Assembly (NCBI GenBank): GCA_945271295.1
Contig: CALYPG010000004.1
Span: 62,001 to 126,000 of the forward strand
Direction of reading: 5' to 3'
From: an uncultured Gilliamella sp.
Lineage (GTDB): Bacteria > Pseudomonadota > Gammaproteobacteria > Enterobacterales > Orbaceae
DNA: 64,000 bases
Shown here: positions 4,064 to 14,651 of the stretch, one piece after another
Layout of the letters: every line of letters begins with the position of its first letter
How positions within the stretch are numbered: the first letter of the stretch is position 1
Program-made: the position numbers and the translations under genes
Notes under the pieces: generated by a model
What the model saw: only the letters and a program-made list of their open reading frames with translations
Told to the model about the DNA's origin: nothing
Database searches by the model: none

Positions 4064-6136
4064 ATGAGTGAAGAAAAAATGTATATACCTAAGGAACTCA
4101 GTTGGCTATCTTTTAATCAACGAGTTTTACAAGAAGCCGCAGATAAGACTAATCCTCTTATTGAGCGAATTCGATTTTTAGGTATTTATTCAAGTAATCT
4201 TGATGAATTTTATAAAGTTCAATTTGCTAACTTAAAAAAATATGTCCTAATAGAACAAGAACAAGGACATTCGTCTTCATCTAATGCTAAACATTTATTA
4301 CGTCAAGTTAATCAGAAAGTTATTCAACTAGAATTGCAATTTGATCAACTTTATAATGAATTACTACTAGAAATGGCTCGAAACCAGATTTTTTTGATTA
4401 ATGAACGACAATTATCTTCGTATCAAGAAAATTGGATTAGAAATTATTATAAACAAAATTTGAGACAATTCATCACCCCTATTCTCCTTGATAGCCATAC
4501 AGAACTTATTCAATTTTTAAAAGATGATCATGCTTATTTAGCGGTAGAAATCATCTGTCACGATAATATTAGTTATGCTTTACTTGAATTACCAACTGAT
4601 CATGTTCCTCGTTTTGTATTGTTACCTTCTGAAGTTTCAACTAAAAATAAATCAATCATCTTTCTGGATAATATTTTACGCTATTGTTTATCTGATATTT
4701 TTAAGGTTTTTTTCGATGCAACTGAATTAAATGCTTATTCCATTAATATTAATCGAGACGCTGAATACGAATTAAATACCGAATTGGATAGCTTACTTGA
4801 ATTAATGTCCCAAGGTTTAAAACAACGTTTGACTGCTCAACCTGTACGTTTTACGTATCAAAAGGATATGCCTAAAGCATTATTTGAATTACTGATTAAT
4901 AAATTGAGATTAACCGAACAAGATGCAATGCAAGGCGGACGTTATCCAAATTTTAAAGATCTTGTCAAATTCCCTGATTTAGGTGGGAAAAATTTATTAA
5001 ATAAAAAATTGCCAAGCCTTGCTTATAATCGATTTAAACAGTTTAGAAATGCCTTTGCTACTATTAAAAATCGAGATGTTTTACTTTATTACCCTTATTA
5101 TTCCTTTGGTCATGTATTAGAAATTATGCGTCAAGCATCGTTCGATCCAGCAGTCACCCATATACGAATGAATATCTATCGAGTAGCCAAAGATTCGCGT
5201 TTTATCCATGCTGCTATTAATGCTGCTAATAATGGTAAAAAAGTGACGGTAGTGGTTGAATTACAGGCTCGTTTTGATGAAGAAGCGAATATTAAATGGG
5301 CAAAAAGATTGATCAGTAGTGGCATTAAGGTCATTTATTCCCAACCAAAACTGAAAATTCATGCCAAATTATTTTTAATCGATCGTAAGGAAGAGGAGCA
5401 AATTGTCCGCTATGCTCATATTGGTTCCGGAAATTTTAACGAAAAAACTGCTCGTGTCTACACAGACTTTTCATTATTAACTGCAGATCCGGCTATTACT
5501 GACGAAGTGATTAAAGTGTTTAACTTTATTGAAAATCCATTCAAACCCGTATCCTTTAATCATTTATTAGTATCACCACAAAATACACGTTTACGCTTTC
5601 ATGAATTTATCGAACGTGAAATAGCAAATGCTAAATCAGGCAAAGTAGCAGGCATTTATCTCAAACTTAATGCTATTACCGATAAAGAAATGATAAAACA
5701 GCTATATCGTGCTTCATGTGCTGGAGTAAAAATAAGAATTATCGTGCGAGGTACCTGCGTATTAGTACCAAAAATACCAAATTTAAGTGAAAATATATTT
5801 GTTACAAGTATTGTAGATCAATTTTTGGAACATGCTCGTGTTTATATTTTTGAAAATAATGGACAAAAAGATACATATATTTCGTCAGCAGATTGGATGC
5901 CTCGTAATATAGATAATCGCATTGAAGTTGGTGTAAGAATTTTTGATCCTAGTATAAAATCAACTATTCATGATATTTTCAATATTCAATGTAATGATAA
6001 TGTTAAAGCTCGTATTATTGATAAAGATAACATGAATAACTATGTACAAAGAGGCAATAAGAAAAAAATAAGAGCTCAACATGCAATTTACGATTATTTG
6101 AAACAATTAGAAATCCACAATAAGGATGTTTCATAG
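4064..6136 (+). CDS. ppk: Polyphosphate kinase 1
   Basis: Reversible transfer of ATP gamma-phosphate onto polyphosphate; a peripheral membrane enzyme in E. coli. 690 residues, the standard length. The N-terminal domain ([16 protein letters not shown]) leads into the phospholipase-D-like catalytic domains. The HxK motif IHAKLFLID holds the histidine that is autophosphorylated in the family, and is followed by [20 protein letters not shown]. The C-terminal domain contains SSADWMPRN and RIEVGVRI. The stop codon overlaps the GTG start of ppx by one base, so the two genes form a coupled operon for making and degrading polyphosphate. Confidence 0.96.
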
Positions 6137-7659
6137 TGAATAAATTTAATGAATATGCGGTAATTGATTTAGGTTCAAATAGTTTTCATATGGTAATTGC
6201 GCGTTGCATTGATGGAGCAATTCAAATTATTTATAAAAATAAACAAAATGTCCATTTAGCAACGGGGCTAAATTCCAATCAAGAATTGAGTGAATCTAGT
6301 CTTAAACGTGGTATAGATTGTCTTACTTTATTTGCAGAAAGATTAAATGGTTTCCCTGCTGACAATGTTAGAATTGTTGCGACTCATACTTTACGAGTTG
6401 CAAAAAATAGACATCAATTTTTAACTGCAGCAGCAAAGATATTACCCTATCCGGTAGAAATTATTTCCGGTCAAGAAGAAGCTCGCTTAATTTACTTAGG
6501 TACCATGATTATGGAACCTACTTCCGCATCTGATACTAAATTTGTGATAGATATTGGAGGGGGGTCAACTGAAATTGCAATAGGAAAAGGAAATGGCTTG
6601 AAACCAATAATTGTAGACAGTCGCCCTATGGGATGTGTAACATACGCGAAACAATTTTTCCCAGATCAACAGATTAATAAAAATGCTTTTCAACAAGCAA
6701 AATTAGCTGCTGAACAGCAAATAGAATGCATGATAAATATTATAAAAAAACAAAATATTACAATTGCATTTGGTACATCTGGTACCATAAAAAGTATCTA
6801 TAATATATTGCTAGATCTTGGTGTAAGTGATGGCATAATTACCCCTAAAAGATTAAATGATTTAATCAGTTATGTACTAGAGTTTAAATCTTCTCAAGAA
6901 ATTGATTATCCTTCTCTTTCTAAAGAAAGAAAAACTGTTTTTGTCAGTGGCTTAGCTATATTCAATGGTGTTTTTGATGCTTTAGGGTTAGAAGCATTAC
7001 AATATAGTCCAAGTGCATTACGCGAAGGTGTTTTATATGAATTAATTGATAAACCTAATTATGGTGATATAAGACAAACTACTGCCCTATCACTTGCCCA
7101 ACATTATAATATTGATAAACGTCATGCTGAGCAAGTTGTGAAGACAGCTAAATATCTCTTTTCCCAATGGAAAGAACAGTCATCTTTAACTATTCCAATT
7201 AATTTAGAAGCAATTTTATATTGGGCCGCACAATTACATGAAGTTGGATTGAAAATTAATTTTTCATCTATTCATAAACATTCCAGTTATATTTTATTAA
7301 ATAGCAATCTACCTGGATTTAATGAAGAACAACAATTATTATTAGCTACACTAGTTCGTTATCATAGAAAATCAATAAATATCGATGAATTACCCTATTT
7401 TAGTCTATTTGAATATAAGCATATCATTCCACTTTTACAAATTCTTAGATTATCAATCTTGATCAATAACCAACGAAATGCAGAACTTGATTTACATGCT
7501 TTTCATTTAAAATTAGCTAATAATAAACTAACAGAAATTACCCTAGAAATTAATAAAATATTTATCAAAAATAATAAACTTATTTTACTAGACTTAGAAC
7601 AAGAGCAGAAATATTGGAACTCAGTCAATCACTGGAAATTATTAATTGAAACGCACTAA
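6136..7659 (+). CDS. ppx: Exopolyphosphatase (Ppx/GppA family)
   Basis: Processively removes terminal phosphate from polyphosphate. 507 residues, as expected for Ppx. The N-terminal ASKHA fold is visible as AVIDLGSNSFHMVIAR, VIDIGGGSTEIAIG and GTSGTIKS, and a helical HD-like C-terminal half contains AAQLHEVGL. The start is a GTG at 6136 that shares its G with the ppk stop (TAGTG), which implies translational coupling. Ppx is preferred over the paralogue GppA because of this gene order. Confidence 0.93.
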   Translation: MNKFNEYAVIDLGSNSFHMVIARCIDGAIQIIYKNKQNVHLATGLNSNQELSESSLKRGIDCLTLFAERLNGFPADNVRIVATHTLRVAKNRHQFLTAAAKILPYPVEIISGQEEARLIYLGTMIMEPTSASDTKFVIDIGGGSTEIAIGKGNGLKPIIVDSRPMGCVTYAKQFFPDQQINKNAFQQAKLAAEQQIECMINIIKKQNITIAFGTSGTIKSIYNILLDLGVSDGIITPKRLNDLISYVLEFKSSQEIDYPSLSKERKTVFVSGLAIFNGVFDALGLEALQYSPSALREGVLYELIDKPNYGDIRQTTALSLAQHYNIDKRHAEQVVKTAKYLFSQWKEQSSLTIPINLEAILYWAAQLHEVGLKINFSSIHKHSSYILLNSNLPGFNEEQQLLLATLVRYHRKSINIDELPYFSLFEYKHIIPLLQILRLSILINNQRNAELDLHAFHLKLANNKLTEITLEINKIFIKNNKLILLDLEQEQKYWNSVNHWKLLIETH

Positions 7660-7778
7660 CTTTTAATAACCTTTATAGATAATTAGATTAGTTATTATTA
7701 TAAAATTGTCATTAAATAAAATATCGCCAACATATGTTGACGACATAAATAAGGAAATAAATATTATATGATAGGATA

Positions 7779-9239
7779 TTAGTTTAAGCCTAATATCTTC
7801 CACCATAAAATTCCAACAGTAAATACTATTAATAAATTTACCACACTACATATAAAACCAACCTTCCACCATGTTTTTACTGGTACAAATCCTTCAGCAA
7901 ATAATAATGGGTTTCTAGCATTAGCAAATTGAGTAATTGAACCGAAATAGTTAGTACAAATAACTAATGCAAAAATAGCAATAAAAGTTGGTACCCCAAG
8001 CGAAATTGCTACTGATAAAAACACAGGGAATAATGCTGCAATGTGCGCATTTCCACTGGCAAAGAAGTAGTGTAAATAAACATAAGCAACGCATAAAATA
8101 ACCAATACAAGAATCCAACTGCTTTCACCCAAATTACTCTGTACTAGTTTGCCAATAGTATCTCCTAACCATTTAGTTACACCAAGTTTATTAATTTGCC
8201 CTGCCATCATTAATAACGCAGCAAACCAAATTAATGTATCCCAAGCTGATTTTTCACCTTTTACATCATCCCAACTCAACACTCCAGTTAATAACAAAAT
8301 AGTCAAACCAATAAAAGCAGTTGTAGTTCCTTCAATGCCAAAATTACCACCACAAATCCAAAGTACTAACAACAAAATCACCGTTATGCCCATGATTATT
8401 TCTTTAGTGGTTATTCCACCCATTTTTTTGAGTTCATCTACAGCCATTCTAGGTGCTTCGGGAGTTTTTTTAAGTTCTGGATTAGTTAAAAAATATATAA
8501 CTAGAGGAATAACAATAAAAGATACTAGACAAGGTACAATTGCCGCAATGAACCATTGTGCCCACCCTAAAGTGATATTTAAATTTGTGGTCACCAGTTT
8601 TGCAGCTAATAAATTACCGGTAAATGCCGTTAAAAACATTGCCGATGTAATATCATTAACATGACTAATGGTCAACATTAAAAATGTCCCAATTCGGTTT
8701 CTTGATTCATCTTTCGGATTAGAATTAAAGTTAATTGATAAAGCTTCGGCAATTGGATAAATCACGCCTCCGGCTCGAGCAGTTGTACTTGGAATAGCGG
8801 GTGCTAATGCGATATCTGTCACTGACAAGCCATATGCTAATCCAAGTGTATTTTTCCCCAAAATTTTAACTAAATAGTAAGCAATACGTTTACTTAACCC
8901 TGTTTTTATAAATCCTCGAGCGATCATAAAAGCAATAACAATAAGCCAAATAAGACTACTGTTTAATTCACTTAAAGATATTTTGATTGATTCAGTTGCA
9001 TTTGTGGCTCCCGATGGTCTTAATATTGCAAATACAGTAATAGCTAATAATCCAATTGCGCCAATCGGCATTATTTCAGCGACAATACAGGCAATTGTTG
9101 CTACAAAAACGATACTAGTTCGCCAACCTTGGATCGTTATACCTTCCGGAGGTGAAATAAATAGCCATAATATTGCAGAAACTGCAATAATAATAATCAA
9201 TGGAAACCATTTTACTGACGGTTTTTTCACTATATTCAT
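7779..9239 (-). CDS. DASS-family anion (di/tricarboxylate) transporter
   Basis: 486-residue polytopic inner-membrane protein of the divalent anion:Na+ symporter family (SLC13/CitT-like), with about 11-14 hydrophobic segments. Two family substrate/sodium-site regions are visible: PSTTARAGGVIYPI in the first half and SITQFANARNPLLF in the second. Length and motifs resemble CitT and plastid-type 2-oxoglutarate/malate carriers. A Shine-Dalgarno (AAGGAAAA) precedes the ATG. It follows the flavin reductase and apbE on the same strand after a 92-base gap, so it probably imports fumarate or another dicarboxylate, perhaps in exchange for succinate. The substrate is inferred from context only. Confidence 0.85.
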   Translation of the reverse strand: MNIVKKPSVKWFPLIIIIAVSAILWLFISPPEGITIQGWRTSIVFVATIACIVAEIMPIGAIGLLAITVFAILRPSGATNATESIKISLSELNSSLIWLIVIAFMIARGFIKTGLSKRIAYYLVKILGKNTLGLAYGLSVTDIALAPAIPSTTARAGGVIYPIAEALSINFNSNPKDESRNRIGTFLMLTISHVNDITSAMFLTAFTGNLLAAKLVTTNLNITLGWAQWFIAAIVPCLVSFIVIPLVIYFLTNPELKKTPEAPRMAVDELKKMGGITTKEIIMGITVILLLVLWICGGNFGIEGTTTAFIGLTILLLTGVLSWDDVKGEKSAWDTLIWFAALLMMAGQINKLGVTKWLGDTIGKLVQSNLGESSWILVLVILCVAYVYLHYFFASGNAHIAALFPVFLSVAISLGVPTFIAIFALVICTNYFGSITQFANARNPLLFAEGFVPVKTWWKVGFICSVVNLLIVFTVGILWWKILGLN

Positions 9240-9331
9240 AGTATTTTCCTTTTCAATTTTAAATCACTCAAATTTTATTCATAAGCAAATATTATATGTT
9301 GTATACAATGCCTTTATTCATTTATTAGATA

Positions 9332-10297
9332 TTAGTAATAGCTGATTAAATATTGTTTATCTAGCAATTTGAAAGAAATATTTTCATGATTTACCAATGC
9401 TATCGTTTTATTTTTTAATAAAAAAATGGCTGATATATTTTGATGTTTTTGCAAAAATTTTTTGCTTCTTTCAATGCCTAATCCATATAAAATAGTTGAA
9501 TAAATATCTCCCTCTAGTGAGGTATTTGAAATAATTGTGACACTTTCTAATTCATTGTCTAATGGATATCCTGTTGTAGGATTAAAAATATGATGGTATA
9601 AACGATTGTTTTGAATAAAAAAACGCTCATAAATACCAGAGGTCACGACTGATTTATTATTAACGTTAAAAATACCCACTAACTCATTATTAAACGAAAA
9701 TGGTTTTCTCAATCCTACATGCCAATATCCATCTTCACTTAAAAGTGATTGTCCTATTGTTAGTACATTCCCACCTAAATTGATTATGGCTTGATGAATA
9801 TTATGCTTACATAGAATAATCTTAGTTATATCGGCTATATAACCTTTGGCTATTGCGCCTAAATCAATTTCCATTCCCTCTTTTTTCAAAAAAACGGATT
9901 GTATTGCTGAATTAAGTTCAATGTCCTCTGGCTTAGTTAATAATAATTGTTGTTTAATTTGCTCATCATTGGGAACTTGATGTCCCTTAAATCCAATCTT
10001 CCAAAGTTTTACTAACGGGCCAATTGCTAAATTAAAGCAATTATTAGGTATAAGACTCACTTTATATGCTTGTTCAATTAAAGAAAACACAACTTGACTA
10101 ACTATGACTGGATGTTTTCCTGCAGCTAAATTAACTGACATAACTTCAGATAATTGACGATTTACTGTCAATTTATCCTCAAGCATACTAATGGTTTTAA
10201 AAACAATTTTAGCTACAGTTTCATTAGGTTCTAAAAGTGTTAATGAAACCGTGGTTCCCAGTAAAGTTTTGTTATATTCGTAAGTCGTGTTTTCCAT
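9332..10297 (-). CDS. apbE: FAD:protein FMN transferase (ApbE), cytoplasmic form
   Basis: Transfers FMN from FAD onto a Thr/Ser of target FMN-binding domains. 321 residues from the ATG at 10297; a TTG nine bases upstream is possible but less likely. ApbE family signatures are present: EIDLGAIAKGYIADI, NLGGNVLTIG, a TSGIYERFF segment and HHIFNPTTGYPLDN. There is no signal peptide or lipobox, unlike the periplasmic ApbE that serves Nqr/Rnf, so this copy should act in the cytoplasm. It begins 15 bases after the end of the reductase gene, whose central domain carries the flavinylation motif. That reductase is the obvious client. Confidence 0.93.
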   Translation of the reverse strand: MENTTYEYNKTLLGTTVSLTLLEPNETVAKIVFKTISMLEDKLTVNRQLSEVMSVNLAAGKHPVIVSQVVFSLIEQAYKVSLIPNNCFNLAIGPLVKLWKIGFKGHQVPNDEQIKQQLLLTKPEDIELNSAIQSVFLKKEGMEIDLGAIAKGYIADITKIILCKHNIHQAIINLGGNVLTIGQSLLSEDGYWHVGLRKPFSFNNELVGIFNVNNKSVVTSGIYERFFIQNNRLYHHIFNPTTGYPLDNELESVTIISNTSLEGDIYSTILYGLGIERSKKFLQKHQNISAIFLLKNKTIALVNHENISFKLLDKQYLISYY

Positions 10298-10312
10298 ATC
10301 AAACAAAATAAA

Positions 10313-13084
10313 TCAGCCATTGATATAATCGGTAGCTTGTTTACCCGCTTGTATACCAAAAATAATGATATCAGCAACCGCATTACCACCAATCCGGTTA
10401 GCACCATGTACGCCGCCTACAACCTCACCGGCTGCAAATACACCTTGTATTATATTTTTATGAGTATCTAATACCTGTGTTTGCGTATTTATTGTGATGC
10501 CACCCATAGTATGATGAACACCAGGAGCAATTTTGATTGCATAAAATGGCCCCTTATTTATAGGATGGCGCATTCCGGTTGTTCGACCAAAATCATCATC
10601 TTGTTTTTTAATAACAAATTGATTATAGCGTTCAATTGTTTTTATTAATTCGGCACTATTTATAGCTAGTTTTTGTGCTAATTCATTGATGGTATTGGCT
10701 TGGATGACTAAATCATGAGATAGATATTCTTCAACAGCTTTGTTTTCATCTCTAACTTGTTGATCAAATAGGATGTAAGCATAATGCTCAGGTAATTTGA
10801 TAATATCTGCAGAAACTTTATCACGCGTATCTAATTCATTGACAAAACGTTTACCATTTTGAGTAATAAGGATAGCTCCACCACCACGAATTGATTCGGA
10901 AATCAAATACGAAGTAGTCTGCTCAACTGTTGGGTGGATTTGGATTTCACTCATATCAACTGTCCCTGCTCCCAGTTTTTCTAAAATTAGAATACCTGAA
11001 CCTGTTGCCCCTTTATGATTTGTCGTTACAAATCCTTTAAGATCCGGACGATATTTTTCAACCATTTCCTTATTAGCACTAAATCCACCTGTAGCAATAA
11101 TAACCGCTTTAGCTTTTATAATTTGAACTGAGCCATCCTCATCAGAAACTTTAACTCCAACTACTTTATTATTTTCTGTTACAATTTCGGTTACAGAAGT
11201 ATCTAACATAACTTCGATACCTCTTTTATTAATATTTTTTACCAAACCACTAATTAAGAAACCGCCAACTGCAGCCCCACTTGCTGGTCTATGCGTGCGA
11301 TCAACGCTCATACCACCAGTTGTAGTTAAACCACTCAACTCGATACCATTATCGTCTAACCAATTTATAGCATCTGGGGCATTTTCAACAAAGTAATGCA
11401 ATAACTCTGGGTTATTTTTATTTTTACCACCTGTCATGGTTTCTTTATAAAAGAGTGCTTTACTGTCAACGATACCTTTTAGTTTTTGAAATTTTGTTTC
11501 AGCAGCATTCATGCCTGCTGAGGCTTTATTGGTATTTCCGCCTATAACAGACATTTTTTCTACAATAATAACATTAGCCCCCAAATCATGAGCTTTGATT
11601 GCCGCGGCAAGTCCTGCACCACCACTACCTACAACAACAATATCATATGATTTATCATTAGGATCACCACCTTCAGCTAAAATAGCTTCTTTATTAGATT
11701 TTGCCATAGCTTTAGTGACAGCTTTTTTGAAAGCTTCACATTGTGTGGTGGCACCAGAAACTGCATCTACATGAGGACTATTTGAATCAATAATTCTATT
11801 TTTAATTACTGAGAAATTATCGAGGACTTCGTGATCAAACTCTTTAGCATTCACCAATTGCATATCTTTTATGAAGTCTTTACCTAATTCAACATTAATG
11901 AGGAATTCATAAGATTCATCATTGACTTTTTCTTGATAACTTCCCGGTTTGAATTTTTTGACATTGAGGTTAACATCACGAATCAAGCTTTCAACTAAAG
12001 AAAAATGCCATAATGGCTCAGGGATCTTTAGTGCCTCACGTTGATCACTGTTAATAACTAATTCTAATTTTTCACCTTTTTCAATGCGGTTAATCCAATC
12101 AGGATAAGCAATGCATGCTCGCCCTACCGCGACTAAATCATAACCGTTGTCAATAGCTGCATCTATATCACTTTGGTTGATAACATTACCTACTCCTACT
12201 ACAGGAATTTTAGCTAATTTATCAGATCGCATTGCCACATACTTATTTATTAAAGGAGTTGGATCTTGCGTATCGACAATTGATGGTCTAAGGATTGCTC
12301 CCATTGAAAAATGCACATAATCAATACCTTTTTCAGCTAATTTTTCCAATAAATACATTGAATCATCAAAACGAATACCAGGAACTTCTAATTCCTCAGG
12401 TGAGAATCGATAACCAACAATAAAATCTTGGTTAGCATATTTCTTAACCATATCATGGGTAATATCTAATACTGCTAAAGGGAATCTAGCTCGATTATCA
12501 CGGCTACCACCCCATTTATCGGTTCTTTGGTTGGAATTTGGCGAATAAAATTGTTGAATTAAATAGGTATTTGCACCATGAATTTCCACTCCATCAAATC
12601 CCGCTTGAATAGCTCGACGAACAGCTTGTCCAAATTTATCAAGCATTGCATCAACTTCTTCTGGTGTTAATTCAATTGGTGTAGGAGCATTAGGTCGAGG
12701 AGCGGCAATGGCACTAGGTCCTACAGGGGATTGCCCACCAATTAATTTAGGTTCAACCATTCGTCCACCATGATAAACTTGAATCACAGCTTTTGAACCC
12801 TTTTCTTTTATAACTTGAGCTATTTTAGCTAATCCTTCAATTTTCTCATCATTATCTAGACCTATAGCACCAGGAAAAGCTAAACCTTTATTATCAACAA
12901 ATCCACATTCAACAATAATTGTGCCAATTTCTCCAGCTCTTGCTTGATAATATTCAATTAAATCATGAGTAACAGAGCCTTCATAAAAACCAGAACACGT
13001 TGTCATTGGTGCCATCATTATTCGATTTTTTAATTCCACACCATTTGGTAATGTTAATGGCTTAAAAGCGATATTATTTTTCAT
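10313..13084 (-). CDS. Three-domain NADH-dependent flavin reductase (OYE / FMN_bind / fumarate-reductase-like)
   Basis: 923-residue soluble fusion with no signal peptide. Residues ~1-370 are an Old Yellow Enzyme-type NADH:flavin oxidoreductase (His169 and Asn172 of HGAN). Residues ~375-470 are an FMN_bind domain with DAVSGATT, where Thr446 is the expected covalent FMN site. Residues ~480-923 are a FAD-binding fumarate-reductase domain (GSGGAG near 486-491). Counterparts of the Shewanella FccA catalytic residues are present: His717, Glu730, Arg733, Arg754, His857/858 and Arg897. Such three-domain proteins are known as cytoplasmic NADH:fumarate or NADH:acrylate reductases. The ATG at 13084 is preferred over a GTG at 13093 because AGGTG lies 7 bases upstream. 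The operon continues into apbE and a DASS transporter. Fumarate is the likely acceptor; other enoates remain possible. Confidence 0.9.
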   Translation of the reverse strand: MKNNIAFKPLTLPNGVELKNRIMMAPMTTCSGFYEGSVTHDLIEYYQARAGEIGTIIVECGFVDNKGLAFPGAIGLDNDEKIEGLAKIAQVIKEKGSKAVIQVYHGGRMVEPKLIGGQSPVGPSAIAAPRPNAPTPIELTPEEVDAMLDKFGQAVRRAIQAGFDGVEIHGANTYLIQQFYSPNSNQRTDKWGGSRDNRARFPLAVLDITHDMVKKYANQDFIVGYRFSPEELEVPGIRFDDSMYLLEKLAEKGIDYVHFSMGAILRPSIVDTQDPTPLINKYVAMRSDKLAKIPVVGVGNVINQSDIDAAIDNGYDLVAVGRACIAYPDWINRIEKGEKLELVINSDQREALKIPEPLWHFSLVESLIRDVNLNVKKFKPGSYQEKVNDESYEFLINVELGKDFIKDMQLVNAKEFDHEVLDNFSVIKNRIIDSNSPHVDAVSGATTQCEAFKKAVTKAMAKSNKEAILAEGGDPNDKSYDIVVVGSGGAGLAAAIKAHDLGANVIIVEKMSVIGGNTNKASAGMNAAETKFQKLKGIVDSKALFYKETMTGGKNKNNPELLHYFVENAPDAINWLDDNGIELSGLTTTGGMSVDRTHRPASGAAVGGFLISGLVKNINKRGIEVMLDTSVTEIVTENNKVVGVKVSDEDGSVQIIKAKAVIIATGGFSANKEMVEKYRPDLKGFVTTNHKGATGSGILILEKLGAGTVDMSEIQIHPTVEQTTSYLISESIRGGGAILITQNGKRFVNELDTRDKVSADIIKLPEHYAYILFDQQVRDENKAVEEYLSHDLVIQANTINELAQKLAINSAELIKTIERYNQFVIKKQDDDFGRTTGMRHPINKGPFYAIKIAPGVHHTMGGITINTQTQVLDTHKNIIQGVFAAGEVVGGVHGANRIGGNAVADIIIFGIQAGKQATDYING

Positions 13085-13114
13085 AAATTGCACCTAATTG
13101 TCTTTAAATTTCAC

Positions 13115-13519: not shown

Positions 13520-13601
13520 ATCTCAAAAAATTTCACATTTTATTATCACCACATCTTTTTGATAAGCATCAGTTCAATATCATCCACAAACAGGAGACAG
13601 T

Positions 13602-14651
13602 ATGAAACCGTTGATTCCATTTTATAATCCAACTATTAGTTATGAAGATAATTATGCCCAAGGACCATTTGGACTTTTTGCACAATCAGATAAAGCGGAA
13701 AAAGTCGATACTAAACCAAGTAAATTTTTAAATCTTGATGTGAACTTACCATTTGGTATTCCGGCTGGACCATTATTAAATGCCAATTATATCAAAGCCG
13801 CTTTTGCTTATGGATTTGATTTATGTGTATACAAAACAGTAAGAACTAAATTACAAAAATGCCATCCGTTACCAAATGTCTTATCCGTTCATCCAAAAGG
13901 TAGATTATCCAGTAATCTTGATACTGTTTTGGCAGATACGAATTATGATCAACCTTTATCTATTACTAATTCATTTGGTGTGCCCTCTTTCTCCCCTGAT
14001 GTTTGGCAACCTGATATGGAAAATGCTGTAAAATCTGCAAGCAAAGGACAATATGTAATTGGTAGTTTTCAAGGTACAAAAGGTAATGGTGAAATAGAGA
14101 AAGATTATGCATTAGCAGCTAAATTAGTCAGAGAAACCAATGCCCCAATTTTAGAAGCAAATTTAAGTTGTCCCAACGAGGGGGCAAGCAAACTACTTTG
14201 CTTTGATGTAGATAAAGTTGAACGAATTGTTAAAGAAATTAAAACTGCAGTACCTGATAGACCACTTATTTTAAAACTTGCTTATTTTCCAGATGATGAA
14301 AGGATTATCTCATTACTCAGCCGGGTCGGTTCAATTGTAGATGGGTTAAGTGCGATTAATACTCTTTCAGCAAAACCTGTTGATGCATCAGGCCATCCTG
14401 CTTTAGGCGAAAAGAGACCTGAAGGAGGAATATGTGGTGAAGCTATACGTTGGGCAGGTTTAGATATGGTAAGTCGTTTGGCTAAATATCGTCAAAAAAT
14501 GGATTTAAAATTTACTATTATTGGCGTTGGAGGCGTGAGTAATAGTGAGCATTATCACCAGTTTTTAAAAAGTGGCGCAGATGCCGTTATGAGTGCCACC
14601 GGTGCAATGTGGAACCCATTACTTGCTATTGAAATCAAAAAAAGTCTTTAA
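13602..14651 (+). CDS. Dihydroorotate dehydrogenase-like flavoprotein (class 1 signature)
   Basis: 349 residues with the FMN-binding TIM-barrel of the PyrD family. The segment ANLSCPNEG near residue 190 has cysteine at the active-site base position, as in class 1 cytosolic enzymes; class 2 membrane enzymes have serine there. Further family features are FGIPAGPLL, KLAYFPDD, IGVGGVSN and SGADAVMSATGAM. The N-terminal ~40 residues and overall divergence do not match well-known class 1A enzymes. It may be the pyrimidine-pathway enzyme or a related dihydropyrimidine oxidoreductase. AGGAGA precedes the ATG by a short spacer. It is divergent from the flavin reductase operon and followed by its own terminator. 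Confidence 0.75.
   Translation: MKPLIPFYNPTISYEDNYAQGPFGLFAQSDKAEKVDTKPSKFLNLDVNLPFGIPAGPLLNANYIKAAFAYGFDLCVYKTVRTKLQKCHPLPNVLSVHPKGRLSSNLDTVLADTNYDQPLSITNSFGVPSFSPDVWQPDMENAVKSASKGQYVIGSFQGTKGNGEIEKDYALAAKLVRETNAPILEANLSCPNEGASKLLCFDVDKVERIVKEIKTAVPDRPLILKLAYFPDDERIISLLSRVGSIVDGLSAINTLSAKPVDASGHPALGEKRPEGGICGEAIRWAGLDMVSRLAKYRQKMDLKFTIIGVGGVSNSEHYHQFLKSGADAVMSATGAMWNPLLAIEIKKSL

Follow-up and report, generated by a model that had tools for sequence, protein, structure and literature searches.

A predicted NADH:fumarate reductase, its flavin transferase and an exchanger-like DASS carrier form a candidate fumarate/succinate cassette in Gilliamella

We analysed 64,000 nucleotides of an uncultured Gilliamella sp. 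of the Orbaceae (GenBank assembly GCA_945271295.1, contig CALYPG010000004.1, positions 62,001 to 126,000; hereafter the window), a part of contig C4 in a genome of 2.8 Mb. The window carries in a row the genes of a three-domain predicted NADH:fumarate reductase (frd), a predicted FAD:protein FMN transferase (apbE) and a carrier of the DASS family. This arrangement is beyond chance and is seen again across Gilliamella and in another genus of the Orbaceae (G404). We consider it likely that the three genes make up a cytoplasmic cassette for fumarate disposal, in which fumarate would enter by exchange, be reduced at the expense of NADH, and leave as succinate. The assignment of the enzyme has already been published; the new part is the exchanger-like carrier as a candidate for the missing fumarate transporter of Gilliamella.

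Results

A predicted fusion reductase and its probable flavin transferase

The three genes lie on the minus strand of the window (7779-13093; Table 1), separated by 6 base pairs (bp) between frd and apbE and by 92 bp between apbE and the DASS gene. The original prediction, made from these letters, had placed a fusion reductase, an ApbE and a DASS transporter in a row at 7779..13084. Open reading frames (ORFs), Pfam and NCBIfam confirm this row and all the named domains; the genes stand as proposed, and the upper end corresponds to the ATG at codon 4 of frd, the GTG start lying at 13093. Frd has 926 amino acids (aa) when counted from the GTG and 923 aa when counted from the in-frame ATG at 13084. 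Full-length homologues of Frd occur in Gilliamella, and the closest frd among 36 loci from named genomes is that of Gilliamella sp. wkB112, with 90% identity.

Table 1. Features of the cassette and of its divergent neighbour in the window. Pfam residue numbers of Frd refer to a 925-aa frame beginning at codon 2.
Feature	Position	Strand	Basis
DASS carrier	7779..9239	-	ORF call, Pfam, NCBIfam, nearest solved structures, surrogate residues
apbE, predicted FAD:protein FMN transferase	9332..10306	-	PF02424, ORF call
frd, three-domain predicted NADH:fumarate reductase, GTG start	10313..13093	-	ORF call, Pfam, TIGR01813, NF005064
Frd, FAD_binding_2 / fumarate reductase domain, residues 483-905	10376..11644	-	Pfam 5.5e-88
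Frd, FMN_bind (PF04205), residues 406-462	11705..11875	-	5.6e-6, 27.4 bits, cut-off 22
Frd, codon of predicted FMN-bearing Thr449 (Thr446 from ATG)	11747..11749	-	DAVSGATT motif
Frd, Oxidored_FMN (Old Yellow Enzyme, PF00724), residues 9-342	12065..13066	-	Pfam 1.5e-78
DHODH-like gene	13602-14651	divergent from frd	

Pfam finds the Old Yellow Enzyme (OYE), FMN_bind and FAD_binding_2 domains in a single Frd chain, which also exceeds the NCBIfam cut-offs of TIGR01813 (flavo_cyto_c) and NF005064. We compared Frd in an alignment of 101 rows, i.e. the window and 100 fetched loci, in which its own genome appears three times and many genomes were fetched twice. The OYE domain is predicted to oxidise NADH with a non-covalent flavin mononucleotide (FMN), and its residues H172 and N175 are present in 100 of the rows, the remaining one having a gap from a partial fetch. 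The FMN_bind domain, which scores 31 bits in a separate search, contains DAVSGATT, an instance of the flavinylation motif Dxx[S/T]GA[S/T] as defined in part of PMC12052999. The motif that had been proposed to hold a covalent FMN at Thr446 is thus present, with numbering from the ATG, and the predicted attachment residue (Thr449 from the GTG) is a threonine in 101/101 rows.

The flavin adenine dinucleotide (FAD) domain matches the flavocytochrome c fumarate reductases of Shewanella with up to 406 bits. We checked seven positions of the fumarate site of Shewanella Fcc3; their list and numbers are partly our assumption, and all match the residues of 1p2e in the alignment. Six are kept: H365, E378, R381, R402, H504 and R544 of Fcc3 correspond to H720, E733, R736, R757, H860 and R900 of Frd, each of them invariant in all 101 rows. 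The seventh, M375, is Leu730 in Frd and leucine in every row. Frd also differs from Fcc3 by its OYE and FMN_bind domains, by having no haem family among its Pfam matches and by showing no signal peptide. Part of PMC7921117 describes the urocanate reductase UrdA, which resembles Frd in combining an FMN domain with a FAD domain and has Tyr373 at the position of Fcc3 His365; a change of this tyrosine to histidine gave low fumarate activity. Frd has His720 at this specificity position and an additional OYE domain. Because the Fcc3 residues are kept and a histidine stands where UrdA has a tyrosine, the site of Frd reads as a fumarate site. Hence, of the substrates first put forward, fumarate agrees with the site residues and urocanate does not, and a role of Frd as a urocanate or general enoate reductase is disfavoured.

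We regard it as highly improbable that Frd reduces another 2-enoate (acrylate, urocanate or a hydroxycinnamate) in place of fumarate. UrdA is a related flavoprotein that uses such a substrate, and further related flavoproteins use other enoates. Hydroxycinnamate amides are present in pollen, according to part of PMC5726620. Yet, the six conserved positions include the very histidine that is lost in UrdA and in a second FMN_bind enzyme of this genome (see below), and the partner of Frd is a dicarboxylate-type DASS carrier, whereas the second enzyme adjoins a monocarboxylate-type MFS carrier.

ApbE matches PF02424 with 255.6 bits (7.4e-76) for a cut-off of 25.6, and its nearest solved structure is 7esa (218 bits). 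Judged by eye, its residues 1-40 contain neither a lipobox cysteine nor a hydrophobic signal stretch, in line with the signal-less ApbE expected next to frd, and the protein is predicted to flavinylate Frd. Part of PMC8238504 treats flavinylation outside the cytosol and sheds no light on this case. The soluble NADH:fumarate reductase of Klebsiella pneumoniae presumably has the same order of domains as the Gilliamella enzyme, i.e. OYE/FMN_bind/FAD_binding_2. It shares with it the Dxx[S/T]GA[S/T] motif and a signal-less ApbE, and in K. pneumoniae this cytoplasmic ApbE is needed for covalent flavinylation of the reductase (part of PMC12052999). The reading of Frd as a soluble NADH reductase is thus supported, as its closest characterised relative type works in the way proposed (PMC12052999). 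The domain set further suggests that Frd is independent of quinones.

A carrier with exchanger residues

The carrier matches Na_sulph_symp (PF00939, 9e-139) and exceeds the cut-off of TIGR00785 (dass). Among solved structures, it comes closest to the plant dicarboxylate transporters DiT2.1 (406 bits) and DiT1 (394 bits), followed by the exchanger LaINDY (323 bits), with profile scores against DiT and LaINDY above 430 bits; the sodium cotransporter VcINDY matches by profile search alone, at 69 bits. Identity to CitT is 32% and to TtdT 31%. In LaINDY, Arg159 and His392 occupy the sodium sites, and these residues are conserved in exchangers and absent from cotransporters (part of PMC7553777). The Gilliamella carrier has R155 and H390 at these positions, and H399 at that of LaINDY His401; CitT reads R/H/H as well. 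The exchanger-type arginine and histidine in the cation sites are common to this carrier and to LaINDY, CitT, TtdT, DiT1 and DiT2.1 (TtdT differs at both histidines); what sets it apart from all of them is that a soluble fumarate reductase is encoded beside it. We conclude that it is probably a dicarboxylate/succinate exchanger, the signature making fumarate/succinate antiport likelier than sodium symport. The R/H/H residues disfavour the sodium symport that is implied by the NCBI family name. The dicarboxylate carrier once proposed for substrate uptake is therefore retained as a linked dicarboxylate-type carrier, and refined to a probable exchanger.

Matches to the DASS family in this genome comprise the gene itself and a 652-aa frame with two partial matches, other families of C4-dicarboxylate carriers not having been searched. 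This frame (G000:C15:10456-12306) matches the two halves of the DASS model weakly, with 37.6 and 32.5 bits and a gap between them, and is probably another anion transporter.

Distribution of the cassette

Our sample of Orbaceae included 44 genomes, 35 of them Gilliamella. frd is found in 32, namely 31 of the Gilliamella and G404 (a 928-aa frame at locus L128). Among those scored as lacking it, six non-Gilliamella Orbaceae and G035 gave no match, and G403 was judged from the lack of an FMN_bind match. The DASS gene is also present in 32 genomes, i.e. 31 of the 32 with frd and G031, and lacking in 11 of the 12 without detected frd. G031 is 59% complete and has apbE and DASS at the beginning of a contig, where frd may have been cut off. 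ApbE and FMN_bind co-occur exactly, the same 34 genomes having both and the same 10 having neither, and apbE adjoins frd in 29 of the 32 frd genomes.

A search of 394 genomes of the order, at E-values of 1e-150 or better, matched 41 genomes, 26 Gilliamella and 15 others. Among the latter, G207 has another architecture and the remaining 14 (13 of f19, one of f27) give fifteen three-domain loci, all of which we read. Since the best named matches of one of these proteins (L079), among the best 120 of 802, are Enterobacter and Lelliottia, we take f19 to be Enterobacteriaceae. Frd proteins of these Enterobacteriaceae-type loci are 62-69% identical to that of the window. apbE is adjacent to frd in 14 of the 15, and 13 carry a DASS gene, which is upstream and divergent and encodes a TtdT-like protein, whereas in Gilliamella it is downstream and co-directional. 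These 13 carriers, all R/H/H, are 53-55% identical to TtdT, 47-50% to CitT and 33-35% to the Gilliamella DASS. The most plausible reading of such differences in DASS subfamily, side and strand is that an exchanger was recruited to the same enzyme on two occasions, though the carrier may instead have been replaced or be fast-evolving.

Three contigs from metagenome-assembled genomes (MAGs) named Neisseriaceae or Snodgrassella (L016, L019 and L029) encode an frd with 69-70% and an apbE with 58-62% identity. No DASS gene was seen at L016 and L029; at L019 the contig ends about 130 bp past apbE, and the downstream side cannot be judged. In a tree of 44 rows, the Neisseriaceae rows group with G404 (100/99) and are joined to Gilliamella (100/100), apart from the Enterobacteriaceae-type rows. 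The pairing of G404 with Neisseriaceae and the rooting are both weak, since the tree has a very long outgroup branch and its program marks L128 (G404), L093 and OUT_L096 as long branches whose position is unsure. As judged by eye, the genes that flank frd-apbE in L029 resemble housekeeping genes, and parts of these flanks align with L016 at 71-86%. This, together with the grouping in the tree, makes a transfer of frd-apbE between gut symbionts likely, although mis-binning of MAGs may also account for these contigs. The same contigs would place an enzyme of the NADH:fumarate reductase type in a lineage described with an aerobic tricarboxylic acid cycle (part of PMC11343714). Proteins of about 1010 aa at L094, L095 and L096 show a third architecture, in which the OYE and FMN_bind domains are like those of frd (47-49% over residues 6-537) and the FAD domain is more similar to that of the second enzyme described below (56-58%); L095 and L096 adjoin an ApbE of the second type.

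These comparisons bear on whether frd-apbE alone might be the functional unit and DASS an unrelated neighbour, which we find very unlikely. The wider gap that separates DASS from apbE, compared with that between frd and apbE, would agree with such a view, as would the two Neisseriaceae loci without DASS. Yet, presence and absence of DASS follow frd in the Orbaceae, and the Enterobacteriaceae-type genomes combine frd with a DASS from a different subfamily.

Neighbouring genes and a second flavin module

The DHODH-like (dihydroorotate dehydrogenase-like) gene that diverges from frd was rejected as part of the cassette: it is present in 43 of the 44 Orbaceae, including genomes without frd, and its distance from ppx is about 130 kb in G003 and 138 kb in G010. 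It is the sole DHODH-family match over the Pfam cut-off in its genome, which has one weak match below it, and it falls far under every listed NCBIfam DHODH cut-off (at best 84 of 269 bits).

A second flavinylation module lies elsewhere in the genome (L041, G000:C15:24000-40000). It consists of a signal-less ApbE, as judged by eye (4934-5854), a divergent LysR regulator (5882-6832), an FMN reductase (7077-7700), an 819-aa fusion of FMN_red, FMN_bind and FAD_binding_2 (7667-10126) and an MFS carrier (10164-11393). The fusion has a methionine at the position of the fumarate histidine and no equivalents of E733 and R736. The module looks like an NADH:enoate reductase, perhaps for hydroxycinnamates, with its own transporter, and with methionine in place of histidine its enzyme is a better candidate than Frd for other enoates. 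Frames of this fusion type, of 819-832 aa, occur in 13 of the 44 Orbaceae genomes. The carrier scores 415.6 bits, against a cut-off of 320, with the L-lactate MFS transporter model, and is under the cut-offs for oxalate/formate antiporters. An oxlT gene is named in 32 Gilliamella genomes in part of PMC11325843; if this is the same MFS gene, its enoate-reductase neighbourhood points to another organic acid than oxalate as the substrate.

Discussion

If the sequences are read in this way, the DASS carrier would take up fumarate in exchange for succinate from the cytoplasm, and NADH would be oxidised at the OYE domain, with electrons passing to FAD through an FMN that ApbE is predicted to attach, and reducing fumarate to succinate. 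Overall, this would amount to NADH + H+ + fumarate(out) -> NAD+ + succinate(out). Neither quinone nor ion gradient would be spent, and glycolytic acetyl-CoA would be freed for the formation of acetate, which yields ATP. We infer the NADH donor, the covalent FMN, fumarate as substrate, succinate as counter-ion and this net effect from the sequence.

In passages of PMC11325843, this gene of Gilliamella is identified with the NADH-dependent fumarate reductase of K. pneumoniae, to which it is similar over its whole length, and is suggested to have perhaps been acquired horizontally. The authors surveyed 95 Gilliamella genomes and report no gene for a fumarate transporter, though fumarate import is known; they suggest an undescribed mechanism of import. 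The words "symporter", "anion" and "dicarboxylate" are absent from the main text of that paper, and no link between Gilliamella and DASS was found in the open-licence literature of PMC by whole-word co-mention. Given its co-distribution with frd and the second, non-orthologous pairing, the DASS carrier is a likely candidate for this missing transporter.

Is fumarate imported at all? The Lyase_1 members of the genome under study (ArgH, PurB and a PurB/PcaB-like protein) pass neither the FumC nor the AspA model, class I fumarase not having been searched, and the same passages of PMC11325843 report no genes leading from oxaloacetate to fumarate in the 95 genomes. Together, these two results point to a need for fumarate import. 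In bees, Gilliamella depletes malate and fumarate, less than citrate and glycerate (part of PMC11343714). The PurB/PcaB-like lyase (L142:1018-2397, 459 aa) is over the TIGR00928 purB cut-off and under that of PRK08937, and might release fumarate from another substrate. One might argue that Frd mainly clears internal fumarate from arginine and purine synthesis, while DASS exports succinate or imports malate, 2-oxoglutarate or citrate. PMC11325843 proposes such scavenging, ArgH and PurB are encoded in the genome, the closest solved relatives of the carrier are the plant DiT2.1 and DiT1, and one frd genome has no DASS. However, DASS accompanies frd in nearly all Orbaceae that have it and a different exchanger stands beside frd in most Enterobacteriaceae-type loci; this pairing in both groups argues for a common substrate or product. 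We therefore hold the scavenging of internal fumarate as the main role to be rather unlikely, and favour the import of fumarate in exchange for succinate.

Several observations nonetheless speak against a fumarate/succinate cassette. The substrate of the carrier cannot be deduced from its sequence, and DiT-type relatives transport malate, 2-oxoglutarate or glutamate. The histidines are not a strict part of the exchanger signature, since TtdT, a known antiporter, reads R/R/Y. Linkage, compared across loci, is strong and not universal. G023 (wkB178) has frd and apbE without DASS, and the adjacent apbE is missing in G002, G006 and G011; hence frd strictly requires neither gene. In these last three genomes (L116, L115 and L117, respectively) frd and DASS are kept and the sole ApbE match is at the second module, and this ApbE presumably serves both targets. 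Outside the Orbaceae, ApbE is lacking at one and DASS at two of the fifteen Enterobacteriaceae-type loci, and DASS at two of the three Neisseriaceae loci, the contig of the third ending too early. The association of frd and DASS among the Orbaceae (31, 1, 1, 11; Fisher p = 1.8e-8) ignores shared ancestry. Likeness to the K. pneumoniae enzyme is taken from domains, motif and the report in PMC11325843. As to physiology, succinate accumulated with Firm-5 alone in mono-colonised bees (part of PMC5726620), and part of PMC11343714 presents it as the cooperative synthesis of two symbionts and not as a rise with Gilliamella alone.

Nor does regulation lend support to the idea that the cassette acts under anoxia, as first proposed: no conserved FNR site (TTGATNNNNATCAA) was found across 30 intervals between frd and the DHODH-like gene, a set without that of the window. 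The best match is at the level of shuffled sequences in 26 of them, and the other four (L103, L106, L015 and L025) have one-mismatch sites at differing places, a level that 12-23 out of 200 mononucleotide shuffles also reach. In the window itself, a site with a single mismatch stands at 13559-13572, at a distance of 465 bp from frd and 29 bp ahead of the start of the DHODH-like gene; it says little, since matches over the whole window (161) exceed the expected mean (104).

A broader scenario can be put forward more tentatively, and we would give it somewhat less than an even chance. The three genes might form a mobile, self-maturing fumarate/succinate cassette of insect-gut bacteria, in which DASS would be both the missing importer and an ion-free exchanger. 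The cassette would have been assembled at least twice from unrelated exchangers, frd-apbE would have passed between Orbaceae and Snodgrassella-type Neisseriaceae, and the succinate would be fed to a partner symbiont. Snodgrassella takes succinate from Gilliamella spent medium (part of PMC11343714).

Natural comparisons are at hand, as wkB178 has frd and apbE without DASS and wkB7 has frd and DASS with ApbE elsewhere. With DASS two genes downstream of frd, an exchanger mechanism would couple the regeneration of NAD+ to a swap of fumarate for succinate at no cost in ion gradient. If this is true, the carrier would link the depletion of gut fumarate by Gilliamella to the succinate taken up by Snodgrassella.

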